Shown piece by piece: positions 30,906 through 62,860 of a stretch of 64,000 bases of DNA. Position 1 is the stretch's first letter. The number at the start of each line of letters is the position of its first letter. Both the position numbers and the translations under genes were made by a program. Source of the DNA: Ignavibacteriae bacterium HGW-Ignavibacteriae-2. Its GTDB lineage: Bacteria; Bacteroidota; Ignavibacteria; Ignavibacteriales; Melioribacteraceae. The stretch lies in NCBI GenBank assembly GCA_002839805.1, contig PGYT01000005.1, positions 1 to 64,000 of the forward strand, written 5' to 3'. The notes under the pieces are model-generated. The model was not told the DNA's origin. It saw only the letters and a program-made list of their open reading frames with translations, and searched no databases.

Positions 30906-33461
30906 TTAGTTCAGTAAAATCATTTTTTTTGTACTGCTAAATATATTTCCTCCATTAACCGGATGTGCTATTAATCTGTAAAAATAAACACCACTTGCAA
31001 TCTTTTCATTACCGCTTAAGTTTACCCCAAAAGTATACTGCCCAGGTTTTTGCAACGCTTGAGTTAATGATTTTATTTTCTGTCCAAGTAAATTATAAAT
31101 CTCCAATGTAACCAAAGAAGTTGTAGCTATGGAATAACTAATTTCCGTAGAGGGATTAAATGGATTTGGAAAATTTTGCTCCAGCTTGAATAAACCGGGC
31201 TGAATTGTAAGATCATTTATTGAGGTTATACCAAGATCCTTGACAAATATTTTGTCCAAGTATATTTTCCCTCTCCTGTCAGCCCCTTCCATTTGTTTTA
31301 ATCTAAACCCGCTTAAAAGATTTGGTTTTTTCACAAACTGATTTAGGGCAATTTCAAATACTTCCCATCCATACCAATTAACCGGACTTATATCAGCAAC
31401 GATTTCACCGCCATTAAAAATGGCGAAAATTGAGTTATCGCTAAGATCTCCATTTATCCATATACATAAAATTGAATCCGTTTCATCAATTTGTAAATCT
31501 TTTAGAAACATCAAGTTTATAATGCCACCAGTATCAGCAGAAAATTCATAAGTAAGTAACCCTGATGTTAAACCTTCAACGCTTCTATAACCAGATCGTT
31601 TAAATGATGTACCGATTAGTGATATACCAGTTGATATTTGATTTGAAGCAGGATCCACAATAACGTATTCGTTTTCAAAATCTTGAAGAGTCTTACCTTC
31701 CGGATAATTACCATTATCAGTTCTAAAAATAAATAAACTGTCCTTCAACATTGTATTACCTAAAAAATCTGCTATGCCCGATTTAAATGATACTTTATAG
31801 GTTGCTGAAGGAGATAGGACATTTTTCGAACGAAATGTTATATATGTAATATCGTTTTCATTAATTATTTTGCCATCCAGAATCGATACTGTTTTGTCCA
31901 AACTATCCAGTAATGATATACGGCCAATAATACCATCAACTTCTTCATTAAAAACAAATTTCATTTCGGCATGTGTGTTAACGCTATTCCCGGAAGGGAA
32001 AGCTCTTGTAATTTTTGGCGCTTCAAAATCTGGATCGGTGATTACCACAGAATAATTAAAAACTCCACCCGATTGTCCGTCGTTATCGCCGTCCAATTTG
32101 GTTCCGAAAATACTTCTTGCAGAAGTATCAATTTTAAAATCATATCTTGTTGAAAATTTCCATAGAGCAGCCGGTGAAATTACTAACTCGTTCGATCCAA
32201 TCCACCTAAGTTTTACCGAATCATCAGGTTCAATTGTAAGTGAGCTTTCAACAGATTGTTTATCCATAGATTGCGAGAAGCTCAATGTTAATGGTTTATA
32301 CGCAGGATGATTATATTTAATTTTGTTTACTGGTTCACTTACAAAGGGGCCTTTAGAATTAAGCAAACTTAAAACATCACTTCGCACAGAGGATAAATTA
32401 TTGTAAAGTGTTGTACCTGGGCATTCGGTGGAACATCCGTCCCGGTGTCCGCTGATATTATTTAAGGTTCTTCCCGAGGAAGAGTGATATGCAGTTCCAA
32501 GCGGATTAATATTTTCTAAATTACATTTCCACGTTAATATTTTAACAAGACTAGTAATTGCTTTATCGGTAGGCGGTACTGAAGTATAAGTGCCAATTAC
32601 ACAAGTTCCCATAGTATTACTGTTTGTTCCGCAAAAGTGAGCGCCAATTGCATTATTTCCACCTGAGCGTCCTTCGTAAACAACCCCGTTCGGATCCACA
32701 AGAAAATTATATCCAATATCGCCCCAGCCGTTAGTAATTGTGTGCCATCCCCAAAATGTTCTAACAACTGCCGGCCAATCTGATGATGAATTTTCAGTAG
32801 CCGAGTGATGAACTATTAAATGAGTCACTTTAGTATAATTCGGAGACCATCGTGAATTTTGCCCATCGGGGCATCCCCACTCAGTTCTGCTAATTACAGT
32901 TGGAAGGTCAAATTCTCCTTTAACGGAATTGTTTTTTGAAATAATTTCGGCTTTATCTAATATATTCTTACCTGTAGCTCCGGGATTAAGAAAACTGATT
33001 TGAAAAGATTTTCCATCTTCAAATTTTTCAAAATAATCGGCATCAACTTGTATTTGATAAAACTTATTGACTGGCTTTTCAAACATCAAACTGCTTATTC
33101 TTGTTCGGGAGTCCTGCTCGATATCATTATCAATTTTAAATTGTTTCCACTCCGACCATTTTACGCTGTCGGCCGAAAATCGAATTGAAACGCCCATTAA
33201 ATCGTAAACTCCTGATATTTTCACTATTAGACCAACAGCAATAAAAGGCGCGCTTTCTTCGAGTGGAATTAGTTTTTGGATCGAATAATAATTCTTCTTA
33301 TTCGTGTCGAAGAAAATAACACCGGATTCAACATTTTCAATCTCGCTCTCACTGGCTTCGGTAAAAGTATATTTAACTTGTTTTGTAATTATACCTTGTG
33401 CAGTTAAATCAATTGAAATTGACAATGCTATATATAAATAAAGGAGTACAATTTTTTTCAT
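30906..33461 (-). CDS. T9SS-exported PGRP/amidase_2-type N-acetylmuramoyl-L-alanine amidase
   Basis: An 851-residue secreted zinc amidase that should cut between MurNAc and the stem peptide. It has a signal peptide (ending DLTAQ) and a beta-rich N-terminal part. The amidase_2/PGRP domain lies at about 195-370: THLIVHHSA supplies the first zinc His (about 212), followed by GDIGYNFLVDPNGVVYEGR and GHRDGCSTECPG (about 335) with the second His and the cysteine ligand. Ig-like (Big_5-like) repeats follow, about 385-600. The T9SS sorting domain is at about 765-851, opening QNFPNPFNPSTEI. Export to the outside rather than the periplasm suggests attack on foreign cell walls or surface display, an inference. 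Confidence 0.9.
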   Translation of the reverse strand: MKKIVLLYLYIALSISIDLTAQGIITKQVKYTFTEASESEIENVESGVIFFDTNKKNYYSIQKLIPLEESAPFIAVGLIVKISGVYDLMGVSIRFSADSVKWSEWKQFKIDNDIEQDSRTRISSLMFEKPVNKFYQIQVDADYFEKFEDGKSFQISFLNPGATGKNILDKAEIISKNNSVKGEFDLPTVISRTEWGCPDGQNSRWSPNYTKVTHLIVHHSATENSSSDWPAVVRTFWGWHTITNGWGDIGYNFLVDPNGVVYEGRSGGNNAIGAHFCGTNSNTMGTCVIGTYTSVPPTDKAITSLVKILTWKCNLENINPLGTAYHSSSGRTLNNISGHRDGCSTECPGTTLYNNLSSVRSDVLSLLNSKGPFVSEPVNKIKYNHPAYKPLTLSFSQSMDKQSVESSLTIEPDDSVKLRWIGSNELVISPAALWKFSTRYDFKIDTSARSIFGTKLDGDNDGQSGGVFNYSVVITDPDFEAPKITRAFPSGNSVNTHAEMKFVFNEEVDGIIGRISLLDSLDKTVSILDGKIINENDITYITFRSKNVLSPSATYKVSFKSGIADFLGNTMLKDSLFIFRTDNGNYPEGKTLQDFENEYVIVDPASNQISTGISLIGTSFKRSGYRSVEGLTSGLLTYEFSADTGGIINLMFLKDLQIDETDSILCIWINGDLSDNSIFAIFNGGEIVADISPVNWYGWEVFEIALNQFVKKPNLLSGFRLKQMEGADRRGKIYLDKIFVKDLGITSINDLTIQPGLFKLEQNFPNPFNPSTEISYSIATTSLVTLEIYNLLGQKIKSLTQALQKPGQYTFGVNLSGNEKIASGVYFYRLIAHPVNGGNIFSSTKKMILLN

Positions 33462-58845: not shown

Positions 58846-58874
58846 TTTTTGGAAATTTTCCGAAACTGTTTTTA
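58844..58874. terminator. Possible terminator between convergent ppk and feoB permease genes
   Basis: AGTTTTTGGAAA and TTTTCCGAAACT (58844-58867) can form an imperfect stem followed by GTTTTTA. It overlaps the ppk stop codon and the end of the convergent gene. Weak, AT-rich pairing. Confidence 0.4.
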
Positions 58875-60287
58875 TGAGATAATATGCCAAATTTGAGCTA
58901 CAAAAAAGCAAACTACTATCCCCATAATTAATGGCATAACTGTAGAGAAAACTGTCCATTTTATACTTCGTGTCTCTTTGTATATCGTATAAATTGTTGT
59001 AGAACAAGGATTATGCAACAAACTGAATAACATCAAACAAATACCGGTTAATGCAGTCCATCCGCCAGCGTGCAATATGATAGCAGTATCCTGAATAGAA
59101 CTCAATTCGAATATTACACCCGATCCTTCACCAACTCCGGTCAACCCAGCAGATAAAACTGTGAGCATCAACACAGTTGGAATTACAATTTCATTCGCTG
59201 GAATAGCTATGATGTATGCTAACAATATTACTCCGTTTAATCCAATCAACAATCCAAATGGGTTTGACCATTCTATAAAAATTTGAGCTAAACTTGAACC
59301 CTCTATTGTTATATTAGCAACAAGCCAGATAACAATTCCGGCAGGAACAGCAAATACAATGGCTCGCCATAAAACAAAAATAGTTCTGTCTATTAAAGAA
59401 GTATAAAGTGTCTGCATAATTCTAGGTGGCCTGTAAGGGGGCAATTCCAAACTATAGGCAGAAGCCTCCCCCTTTAGTGCCGTTTTAGATAAAGAATAAG
59501 ATACTACCAAACTGAGAATTATACCGAGCAGAGCAACTGAAACAACTGCTGCCGCAGATGCTAATCCGGCTAAATAAGGCGGTGCCAGAGAACCTATAAA
59601 TATCGAAGCAATCAATATCTGAGTTGGCCATCTGCCGTTACAAAGTGAAAAATTATTTGTAATAATCGCAAGCAGTCTCTCACGTGGACTGTCAATTACT
59701 CTGGCAGCAACAACTCCTGCAGCGTTGCAACCGAACCCCATCGCCATAGTTAAAGCCTGTTTTCCGTGTGCGCCCGCTTTACGAAATAGGGAGTCCATAT
59801 TAAACGAAACGCGTGGTAAATATCCGAAATCTTCGAGTAAAGTGTACATCGGGAAAAATATAGCCATTGGAGGAAGCATTACCGCAATTACCCAAGCCAT
59901 AGAAAGATAGGCTCCATCAAGTAAAACTCCATCAATAAAAAATGGAAGACCGATGCTATATGATAATGATTTAAGCCAGGGATGAACTGTGTCCAATAAA
60001 ATTGAGGCTATAAATGCGGAAGGGACATTTGCTCCGACAATTGTAATCCAGAATACAAACGCTAACAAAATAAACATTATCGGGAATCCGTAAAGTTTAC
60101 TCGTAAGAATTTTATCTAACTTTATGTCGAAAGCGTAAGATTCTTTATCTCCGAATGATTTCACTGTTTTCTTACTTATTTCAGCTGCATCTTTATAAAT
60201 TGATTCTAAAAGAGAATCGTGTAAAGTTTCGCCTAATTCCCAACGCAGTTCATTTGCTCTATTGATTAAAATTTCATTTTCTTTCAT
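58872..60287 (-). CDS. feoB: FeoB permease part (ferrous iron transport, membrane domains only)
   Basis: A 471-residue inner-membrane protein equal to the C-terminal two thirds of FeoB. It begins in the helical segment that normally follows the GTPase (about 1-60), then has about ten helices. It shows the Gate/nucleoside-recognition segments MGFGCNAAGVVAARVIDSPRERLLAIITNNFSLCNGRWP, where the conserved cysteines that line the iron path are kept, and the matching C-terminal VLHNPCSTTIYTIYKETRS-like stretch. The GTPase is encoded by the separate upstream gene (60319-61119), 31 bases apart. An in-frame TAA two codons before the ATG rules out a simple continuous frame. AAAGGG lies before the start. 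Confidence 0.9.
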   Translation of the reverse strand: MKENEILINRANELRWELGETLHDSLLESIYKDAAEISKKTVKSFGDKESYAFDIKLDKILTSKLYGFPIMFILLAFVFWITIVGANVPSAFIASILLDTVHPWLKSLSYSIGLPFFIDGVLLDGAYLSMAWVIAVMLPPMAIFFPMYTLLEDFGYLPRVSFNMDSLFRKAGAHGKQALTMAMGFGCNAAGVVAARVIDSPRERLLAIITNNFSLCNGRWPTQILIASIFIGSLAPPYLAGLASAAAVVSVALLGIILSLVVSYSLSKTALKGEASAYSLELPPYRPPRIMQTLYTSLIDRTIFVLWRAIVFAVPAGIVIWLVANITIEGSSLAQIFIEWSNPFGLLIGLNGVILLAYIIAIPANEIVIPTVLMLTVLSAGLTGVGEGSGVIFELSSIQDTAIILHAGGWTALTGICLMLFSLLHNPCSTTIYTIYKETRSIKWTVFSTVMPLIMGIVVCFFVAQIWHIIS

Positions 60288-60318: not shown

Positions 60319-61119
60319 TTATTGTAAAGATCTTTCCATTACATTGGAGGTAATTTCCAGATTCCCGATTTCGCCCGAGTTTACAGCGTCAATCATACTC
60401 TGGTCCCCTTCCAGCAGCCGCATAGCGACCCAACGTTTGTTCGGTAATTTGGGGAATTGTTCCTGGAGCTTAATTGTAAGGTCGTTAATAGCAAAATCCA
60501 CTTTGGAAGAAATTGATTTTATCCTTCTTGGTGCACAAACAAAACTTCCGTTAGCAACTTCATCTATATATCTCAGCACTTCATCCATTCCCTTTTTCTG
60601 GCGTGCTTCTGTAGGAATTACAGGTATACCAAGTTCTTTTGACAATGCGCGAACGTCAATTTCCATTTTATTTCTTTTTAACTCATCCATAAGGTTCAGA
60701 ACCAAAACGGCTCTGTCTGTAATTTCCAATATTTGAAGCACCAGATTGAGGTTTCTTTCAAGCCTTGTAGAATCTACAACTATCACAGTAACGTCCGGTT
60801 TCCCGAACAAAATAAAGTTTCGCGCGATATCCTCATCAGTACTGGTTGATAAAAGGGAATAAGTCCCGGGTAAATCAACAATTTTGAAATTTTTATTTGC
60901 GTAGCTAAATCCCCCTTCGGCCCGTGCAACAGTTTTACCAGGCCAGTTACCTGTGTGTTGTCTTAATCCTGTAAGGTTATTAAAAATTGTACTTTTACCA
61001 GTATTAGGATTACCCGCCAAAGCAACCACATAATCAAACTTATCCATATTTATGCCCAGTTTTACAAGATTATTGATGTTATGCACCGGGCAGTTTTCAC
61101 AATTGTTTAATTCATTCAT
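60319..61119 (-). CDS. feoB: FeoB GTPase part (separate gene)
   Basis: A 266-residue FeoB-type G protein. G1 GNPNTGKST (about 34-42), G2 region with TGNWPGKT, G3 VDLPGTYSL (about 78), G4 NLMDE and G5 PTEARQ. A helical domain follows to the end ([17 protein letters not shown]) and the frame stops there. It starts with a cysteine-containing extension (NCENCPVHN) that is unusual in position. A start at residue 25 (MDKFDY, 61047) would drop it, but the 61119 ATG lies three bases after the upstream stop. It powers or gates the permease encoded 31 bases downstream. Confidence 0.9.
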
Positions 61120-61122
61120 AAT

Positions 61123-62148
61123 TTACTCACTTATAATATCTTTAATAAAAACCTGACTAGCGTGTTTTTTACGTATAGCTATAGTAGCTCCTCTAATTCT
61201 GTATCCTGTAGGATCGCCGCCAAGGCTTTGTATTTCGGCTTTTACTTCGGAACCAGGAACAACTCCAAGATCCAATAAACGCCTTCTTTGTTGGCCCCTT
61301 ACTGCTTTGGCAATGCCAACAATTGTCCCCTTTTGTCCAACAGAAAGATCAGACAATTTTTTAAAAGACTTCACTACGTTTTTACTATCCGGAATAAGAT
61401 TAACCGAAATATTATTCGCAATAATTGGTGCAAGAATCGCAATCTCTCCATTTGCCTCAAACTTAATTCTGTTGGATGATTTTTCTATCATTCTAATTTG
61501 TTGCCCTACATACAATCCTTCAGCAACAAGCTGAGCATAAACGGTGCTGGGCTCATCTTCCAAATGTAAAATTTTTGCAAATTCCCCTTCGTTTAACTGT
61601 GTAATTGGAATCCCGATTTTTTGAGGAAGTTCGCCTTTAGTTGAAGGAATAGGATCTCCATGTGGATCCATTATAGGATTACCTATTTGAGCCGCTAGTT
61701 CATTAGCAGCTTCAATTGACATCATATGTTCCATTTCTTCGGCTTGCGAATGCCATTCGGTTTCATTTACGCTGGTCTCGTCAGCGAGGTATCTTTCCCA
61801 TAATCGGTGAACACGAATAACCCTAAGTGCGTATGACCGGCCTTCACTGGTTAAAATAAATCTATCTCCAGTGTTTGTAATAAGCCCCATATCCTGAAGT
61901 GTATCAATAACTTTAGCCGCATCATCTTTAGGCAGAGTTAAACTTCCCGAAATACTGGCAAGAGAGCAGTCGGCATTGTTATATTCGCAGTCGTAAAAGT
62001 GCTTTAATGCGTCTTCAATTTTAACGCGTTTATTATTCAGCAGAGCCCTTTTCCATTTTGCGATAAGACCTTTTTCAGGAAAAAAAAGGTAGCCCGAAAA
62101 CAAGAGAATTGATGTCCCTACTATTAATGTATAAAGATTACTGTCCAC
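61123..62148 (-). CDS. Membrane-anchored DtxR-like protein fused to FeoA
   Basis: A 341-residue fusion. An N-terminal membrane helix (about 5-22) is followed by a basic stretch (KWKRALLNNKR), a DtxR/MntR winged helix (about 40-105), and the metal/dimerisation domain (about 108-175; VHRLWERYL, WHSQAEEMEHMMS, DPHGDPIP). An SH3/FeoA-like segment follows (about 180-235), and then a typical FeoA domain (about 263-340; LSVGQKGTIVGI, RRRLLDLGVVPGSEV, GATIAIRKKHA). Probable metal ligands of the DtxR type are His, Glu, His, Glu, His, with Glu at the position of DtxR Cys102, as in MntR. Its start overlaps the preceding regulator gene by 11 bases. The role could be repressor, or FeoA/FeoC-like partner of FeoB at the membrane. 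Confidence 0.8.
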   Translation of the reverse strand: MDSNLYTLIVGTSILLFSGYLFFPEKGLIAKWKRALLNNKRVKIEDALKHFYDCEYNNADCSLASISGSLTLPKDDAAKVIDTLQDMGLITNTGDRFILTSEGRSYALRVIRVHRLWERYLADETSVNETEWHSQAEEMEHMMSIEAANELAAQIGNPIMDPHGDPIPSTKGELPQKIGIPITQLNEGEFAKILHLEDEPSTVYAQLVAEGLYVGQQIRMIEKSSNRIKFEANGEIAILAPIIANNISVNLIPDSKNVVKSFKKLSDLSVGQKGTIVGIAKAVRGQQRRRLLDLGVVPGSEVKAEIQSLGGDPTGYRIRGATIAIRKKHASQVFIKDIISE

Positions 62149-62824
62149 TTAAATCCTCATTTGTTTTTTTAATCACAAAAAGTTTATTGGCAAGTGTTGC
62201 ACTAAAAGAATGTTTTTTATTATTGAATAAAATAAAAATTGAGTTATCAAATTCGAGTCTGTTCATAAGCTCAATTTTAGTGTTTAACTCGATGCCAAGT
62301 GAAGTAAAGTATTCCATAACTTCCTCATTTTGATGATCAACCCTAGCTACATAATAAGATGACCCCACTTTGGCCTCAGCTAGGGAAATCAATTCTGGAC
62401 ACACAGGCATTTTGCCGTTTTTATTGGGAATTGGATCACCATGAGGATCGAATTCCGGATATCCCAAATGACTATCAATTTTATCGATTAACAGATCAGA
62501 AGTTTGATGTTCCAGAATTTCAGCCTCCCGATGCACTTGACTCCATGAAAAATCCAGAGTTTTTATTAAAAATGTTTCCCACAAGCGGTGTCTGCGCAAC
62601 ATATTCAGTGCTAATTTTTCACCTTTGGCCGTCAGCTTTAGTCCTTTGTATTTTTCATAATGAACAAAACCCTGGCTGTGCAGTTTTTTTGCCATTTCAC
62701 TAGTAGCCGCATTTGTAACTTCCAATTTTTCGGCAAGATGCGCGGTACTTACCCTAAGGTTATTGCTACCGCTCATTTTGTAAATTTCTTTTAAATAATC
62801 TTCTTTTGAAAATGATACTAACAT
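62138..62824 (-). CDS. DtxR/MntR-family metal-dependent repressor
   Basis: A 228-residue soluble regulator. Winged helix at about 1-70 (SKEDYLKEIYKMSGSNN, NAATSEMAKKLHSQGFV), metal/dimerisation domain (about 75-145; MLRRHRLWETF, VHREAEILEH, DPHGDPIP) and a C-terminal SH3/FeoA-like domain (to about 225). The metal positions are conserved in the same form as in the following protein, with Glu in the place of DtxR Cys102. Frame is open to 62872; I chose the ATG at 62824 because upstream sequence looks like promoter/operator. First gene of the Feo operon. It most likely represses the operon when metal is bound. Confidence 0.88.
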   Translation of the reverse strand: MLVSFSKEDYLKEIYKMSGSNNLRVSTAHLAEKLEVTNAATSEMAKKLHSQGFVHYEKYKGLKLTAKGEKLALNMLRRHRLWETFLIKTLDFSWSQVHREAEILEHQTSDLLIDKIDSHLGYPEFDPHGDPIPNKNGKMPVCPELISLAEAKVGSSYYVARVDHQNEEVMEYFTSLGIELNTKIELMNRLEFDNSIFILFNNKKHSFSATLANKLFVIKKTNEDLSGQ

Positions 62825-62831
62825 GTTTCTA

Positions 62832-62860
62832 AACTTAAGCGAACTTAACTTAATTGTCAA
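62832..62860 (-). promoter_or_regulatory. Candidate iron-responsive operator/promoter of the Feo operon
   Basis: On the + strand AACTTAA occurs twice in direct repeat, at 62832-62838 and 62842-62848 (period 10), inside a longer A/T-symmetric stretch. TGTCAA at 62855-62860 reads TTGACA on the minus strand. The block lies 8 to 36 bases before the regulator ATG, where a DtxR-type operator would be expected. If the TTGACA is a real -35 box, the message would have almost no leader. Inference. Confidence 0.35.

Follow-up and report, generated by a model that had tools for sequence, protein, structure and literature searches.

A membrane-anchored DtxR-FeoA fusion protein encoded beside a split FeoB in Ignavibacteria: a putative metal-sensing FeoA subunit

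Over a hundred genomes of the Ignavibacteria type encode, together with the bacterial iron importer FeoB, a protein (TM-DtxR-FeoA) in which one membrane helix, a DtxR module and a FeoA domain are joined in a single chain. This protein, found in a window of 64,000 nucleotides (Ignavibacteriae bacterium HGW-Ignavibacteriae-2, contig PGYT01000005.1, positions 1 to 64,000), is most likely a membrane-bound metal sensor and FeoA subunit that would gate FeoB. The explanation preferred here as a whole, with a probability of about 0.58, is that a metal-sensing FeoA subunit feeds back on FeoB beside repression of the operon by a soluble DtxR, and that it originated from the tail of a permease-DtxR fusion. 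As read from sequence, the evidence comprises the architecture of the protein, its operon, conservation of its metal ligands, loss of its DNA-contact residues, homology of its anchor, and an operator box that tracks the soluble DtxR; metal binding, contact with FeoB-N, the direction of control and the identity of the metal are proposed.

Gene layout and domain architecture

Four genes lie on the same strand of the window in the order dtxR, TM-DtxR-FeoA, FeoB-N, FeoB-C:

62138..62824, (-), soluble DtxR-family repressor (PF01325, E 8.4e-16; PF02742; PF04023), likely start 62824 by homology, versus 62872
62835..62848, (.), DtxR-type operator box TTAAG-N4-CTTAA, with TTGACA (62855-62860) on one side and the start codon on the other
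61123..62148, (-), TM-DtxR-FeoA gene, 341 aa, GTG start with GAGG before it (ORF and domains, 45-member alignment, fold)
60319..61119, (-), FeoB-N, 266 aa, GTPase and first part of the helical domain (PF02421, E 1e-61; PF17910, partial; split point)
58872..60287, (-), FeoB-C, 471 aa, rest of the helical domain and membrane permease (PF07670, PF07664; split point)

From N- to C-terminus, TM-DtxR-FeoA itself comprises a single membrane helix, a winged helix that is degenerate, a DtxR metal/dimer domain, an SH3 domain and a canonical FeoA domain:

62083..62139, (-), N-terminal transmembrane helix, approximately residues 4-22, N-out/C-in (hydropathy, positive-inside bias)
62020..62076, (-), basic linker, residues 25-43, homologous together with the helix to the last transmembrane helix and linker of metal ABC permeases (by an HMM restricted to residues 1-43)
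61852..62019, (-), degenerate acidic winged helix, residues 44-99, ligand D46 kept (no PF01325 match, net charge, contact residues lost)
61639..61851, (-), DtxR metal-binding and dimerisation domain, residues 100-170, with H114, E118, H133, E137, E140 and H141 (PF02742, Fe_dep_repr_C, residues 100-168, E 1.5e-23; ligands in 44-45 of 45)
61393..61596, (-), DtxR SH3 domain, residues 185-252, with family-specific H195-x-E-D-E-P (fold match up to residue 252)
61141..61359, (-), FeoA domain, residues 264-336 (PF04023, E 5.9e-23)

The open reading frame is real and coding, and overlaps the upstream dtxR by 11 bp. The N-terminal membrane helix proposed in the initial annotation was confirmed in 45/45 aligned homologues, each of which starts ahead of it (alignment, hydropathy) and has a more positive segment after the helix than before it, and also appears as a separate helix (residues 3-22) in an AlphaFold model built from five sequences (pLDDT 82.9, pTM 0.69). 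Because all 45 compared homologues have the helix and none runs only from the winged helix onward, a misread start is ruled out.

In the model the helix is followed by the three-domain DtxR fold, which matches MntR and IdeR structures (5zr6: Z 21.5, rmsd 1.8, 206 residues), and then by a second FeoA-like domain, giving two beta domains. The complete metal/dimer domain and the succession of DtxR module and FeoA in one frame were correctly recognised at the outset, but DtxR's own SH3 domain, which sits between the metal domain and FeoA, had been overlooked; hence there are two FeoA-fold domains, and two FeoA stretches overall in the Pfam matches. The winged helix, initially described as complete, is so as a fold in the model, but it is doubtful as a DNA-binding domain because PF01325 gave no Pfam match even at E 1. 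No ABC-3 permease domain was matched by Pfam in TM-DtxR-FeoA either, whereas the L087 and L131 proteins do match it.

Distribution, operon structure and split FeoB

A scan of 395 genomes of the window's phylum yielded about 40 full-length TM-DtxR-FeoA homologues, almost all of them from the class to which the window belongs; a scan of named genomes with one protein gave five loci, and the named relatives that possess the protein are Ignavibacteria MAGs. As to whether the gene always neighbours feoB, the same order on one strand is found in 44/44 fetched loci, with dtxR adjacent in 38. FeoB-C was found in 114/391 genomes of the class, and 66 further TM-DtxR-FeoA homologues include 64 with FeoB-C within 1.1 kb after them and two on separate contigs. 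In 104 related-genome loci (40 fetched, 64 by coordinates), the TM-DtxR-FeoA gene immediately precedes FeoB and has the same orientation. Outside the window's class, two genomes belonging to a different family (G107 and G029; loci L079 and L083) also contain the whole four-gene operon; horizontal transfer is likely there, because these loci are nested inside the tree.

FeoB is thus the neighbour throughout, but the single feoB of the initial annotation proves to be two genes. The break lies in a loop of the cytosolic helical domain, through which the intact FeoB homologues run straight. FeoB is split in most homologous loci and intact in L078, L085, L142 and L143; among the 44 fetched loci, two have an intact FeoB. 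Conversely, a split FeoB without the membrane protein is found in seven loci. Since the split FeoB and TM-DtxR-FeoA occur independently, tethering a loose GTPase cannot be the sole role of the latter, and the notion that the split FeoB requires a tether is unsupported.

At the N-terminus of FeoB-N (window 61080-61119), immediately ahead of the GTPase domain, this FeoB-N clade has a conserved C-x-x-C motif (NCENC) that may be a site for metal or redox chemistry; the aligned full-length FeoB of contig C50 lacks it. The same genome encodes two full-length FeoB proteins elsewhere; upstream of a second full-length FeoB, on contig C50, is the gene for a 169-aa protein with a FeoA-like part (L094, 7137-7646), and a third FeoA-FeoB pair is found beside it.

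In seven relatives, a plain FeoA occupies the place that TM-DtxR-FeoA has in the others, which agrees with the suggestion that TM-DtxR-FeoA is a FeoA substitute. This plain FeoA of 77-83 aa fills the slot (dtxR, feoA, FeoB-N, FeoB-C) in family f59 and in genome G164 (L095); at L138 the contig ends ahead of dtxR, and G665 was rejected as a standalone-FeoA locus because of a contig end. The FeoA domain of TM-DtxR-FeoA shares 45% identity with the standalone FeoA that L095 has in this slot, and is apparently the operon's own FeoA. In the FeoB-C tree f59 branches first, and TM-DtxR-FeoA was evidently gained a single time and may have been lost later in G164, the position of which is unsure because of its long branch.

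Metal ligands and DNA-contact residues

In the 45-member alignment, H114, E118, H133, E140 and H141 are conserved in 45/45, E137 in 44/45 and D46 in 41/45. E137 occupies the position of DtxR Cys102, as in MntR, and therefore Fe and Mn cannot be distinguished. Judged from these ligands, TM-DtxR-FeoA would bind metal. The metal/dimer domain is also the most conserved part of the protein, with a mean pairwise identity of 63% (FeoA 55%, winged helix 41%; the winged helix of the soluble paralogues, 47%), and the H-x-E-D-E-P motif of the SH3 domain, present in 45/45, differs from the soluble paralogues.

The DtxR module appears, on the other hand, to have lost DNA binding. The mean net charge of its winged helix is -3.0, versus +1.5 in the soluble paralogues. 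Inspection of the recognition helix, as the initial annotation had advised, revealed that the DNA-contact residues are not kept: the position of DtxR P39 is D or E in 35/45 homologues, position 42 is A in 31/45, against S or T in 39/39 soluble paralogues, and the family lacks the wing motif Y-x-x-Y-K/R-G. Two cysteines of the degenerate winged helix, C54 and C61 (window 61966-61989), are kept in 33/45 and 24/45 homologues, respectively.

TM-DtxR-FeoA might be mainly a scaffold that, through its anchor, gathers FeoA and the separate FeoB-N GTPase at the permease half of FeoB, with metal sites that serve structure rather than sensing. FeoB is split in most loci, which leaves FeoB-N without a covalent link to the membrane, and FeoA is the last domain of TM-DtxR-FeoA while FeoB-N is the product of the next gene. 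The seven loci with split FeoB and no membrane protein, the four with the membrane protein and an intact FeoB, and the greater conservation of the metal/dimer domain than of FeoA argue otherwise, and such a role, though the strongest competitor of a metal-sensing FeoA subunit, seems unlikely.

The soluble DtxR and its operator

The start of dtxR is probably at 62824 rather than 62872, because its homologues begin there and an operator occupies the extra stretch. The palindrome TTARG-N4-CYTAA is found in the promoter region of 32/39 loci with dtxR, against 0.09 expected (mean of shuffled sequences; at most 2 matches in 100 shuffles), and within 300 bp at 0/6 loci without an adjacent dtxR (Fisher p 2e-4). 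All six of the latter retain TM-DtxR-FeoA with its ligands and degenerate helix; a soluble full-length DtxR was not found in five of their six genomes, and in the sixth (G290) one lies about 2.2 kb upstream. Conversely, f59 has no membrane protein, yet dtxR and the box are present in 5/5. Thus the two functions are separable in both directions, and the soluble paralogue, not TM-DtxR-FeoA, apparently reads the operator, in accordance with the proposal that the neighbour keeps the DNA-binding task; the same comparisons rule out TM-DtxR-FeoA as reader of the operon's box.

Another DtxR-like box in the window, at 32359, is inside an 820-aa ORF and was taken as chance. In G290 (contig C1, locus L047, 5575-7500), a gene for a 641-aa protein of NRAMP-like appearance is directly upstream of the TM-DtxR-FeoA gene, with dtxR beyond it.

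Origin of the membrane anchor

The weak matches of the first scan were ABC-3 metal permeases with a C-terminal DtxR module, in which the last permease helix and linker (e.g. LFSPKEGVVTKFFRRRSASKMVLIEDVIK) resemble the start of TM-DtxR-FeoA (LFFPEKGLIAKWKRALLNNKRVKIEDALK). An HMM of residues 1-43 was compared with a set of 1206 proteins in which other helices, both from these permeases and from FeoB, were represented. Outside its own family it matched nothing but the final helices of metal permeases (E 2e-6 to 0.5), and unrelated matches began at E 1.5. A tree of the two-domain core places the soluble DtxRs on one side and TM-DtxR-FeoA with the permease-DtxR fusions on the other (support 95/94), though the branch uniting these two is deep and could reflect long-branch attraction; the TM-DtxR-FeoA family forms one clade (100/99). 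From the anchor homology and the tree, the initial idea that a repressor-like module simply became membrane-bound is not sustained, and the best reading of TM-DtxR-FeoA is that a metal ABC permease-DtxR fusion contributed its tail, which became joined to FeoA. Two related genomes (L131, 7700-9208; L132, 7277-8785) encode a 502-aa ABC-3 permease-DtxR-SH3 fusion some 1.7 kb downstream of this operon.

Permease-repressor fusions have been reported in 11 phyla, and in the fusion YtgCR of Chlamydia the YtgR part is cleaved off and acts as an iron-dependent repressor (PMC5599777, PMC7755916). As in YtgCR, the final helix of a metal permease carries at its cytoplasmic end a DtxR-type domain with conserved metal ligands, and helix and linker are homologous (the comparison used Bacteroidota permeases of this type). 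Unlike YtgCR, TM-DtxR-FeoA keeps only that last helix and no complete ABC-3 domain, has lost the DNA-contact residues, and has an extra C-terminal FeoA, being coupled to FeoB rather than to an ABC importer. This kinship would suit a membrane-tethered or cleaved transcription regulator, the DtxR part of which acts in place or is released for metal-dependent repression, and the conclusion that DNA binding was lost draws on residues and charge, whereas YtgR of the same fusion type binds DNA. Such a regulator is nevertheless improbable: its recognition-helix and wing residues are replaced in an acidic winged helix that PF01325 does not match, most loci have a true soluble DtxR and box upstream, the box is gone where the membrane protein alone remains, and cleavage would part the FeoA tail from the anchor beside FeoB. 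An annotation artefact or decayed gene, with the helix as a misread start or the DtxR part vestigial, could be imagined from the GTG start, the overlap with the upstream gene and the diverged winged helix, but is rendered negligible by the helix at the same place in every homologue, the good ribosome-binding site, the high conservation and the single origin.

Comparison with other systems

TM-DtxR-FeoA shares with canonical DtxR, IdeR and MntR the three-domain fold, dimer domain and metal sites, and differs from them in its membrane anchor, acidic winged helix and extra FeoA. The usual FeoA is small, single-domain and cytosolic, whereas here every homologue has its FeoA attached to an anchored DtxR module. 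FeoC is a small winged-helix partner of FeoB; a sequence relation to TM-DtxR-FeoA is not detectable, the FeoC family being absent among its Pfam matches at E<=1. PgMntR of Porphyromonas gingivalis is a soluble DtxR with twin FeoA domains that binds DNA, though not the feoB1 promoter, and for which a membrane helix is not reported (PMC4805248); TM-DtxR-FeoA resembles it in the DtxR module followed by two FeoA-fold domains, but not in its anchor, degenerate winged helix and fixed feoB partner. In FeoAB of Bacteroides fragilis, FeoA stabilises the GTP-bound NFeoB (PMC8980893); in both cases FeoA forms one chain with a further Feo component, the FeoB GTPase in FeoAB and a membrane-bound putative metal sensor here. 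A survey of Feo systems notes FeoA proteins that carry an additional domain, as well as 'Meo' systems of Mn type, and makes no mention of DtxR in its main text (PMC8749426). A literature search on membrane-bound DtxR, split FeoB and FeoB-DtxR of Ignavibacterium, with subscription papers mostly outside its scope, found no description of TM-DtxR-FeoA.

Proposed role

When metal is plentiful, the soluble DtxR would bind the operator and repress the operon. TM-DtxR-FeoA, held in the inner membrane by its one helix with its domains in the cytoplasm, would dimerise and bind Fe(II) or Mn(II) through the conserved sites of its DtxR module; its metal state would be relayed via the SH3 domain to the C-terminal FeoA, which would act on the FeoB GTPase. 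As a metal-sensing FeoA subunit it may thus control FeoB directly, adjusting it after translation and providing fast feedback on transport. It most likely arose a single time, when the DtxR tail of a metal ABC permease-DtxR fusion, together with the last permease helix, became joined to the feoA already present in the operon. We put at about even the chances that the DtxR module left DNA to become an allosteric cytoplasmic metal sensor, with FeoA conveying the metal occupancy of the anchored dimer to the FeoB GTPase; the same fold would then be used twice per operon, at the promoter and at the transporter.

These findings bear on two questions, the effect of FeoA on FeoB and the feedback control of Feo transport by cytosolic metal: in more than 100 genomes FeoA is naturally joined to a putative metal sensor of known fold and ligands, and the reading of DNA is left to a neighbour. 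A comparative set is at hand in ligand mutants, the FeoA-only relative (f59) and the intact-FeoB relative (L085 type). Permease-DtxR fusions, seen as hidden repressors on the model of YtgCR, may in some lineages be transporter sensors, and the operon suggests that these bacteria limit metal uptake at two levels, the transporter itself and its gene.
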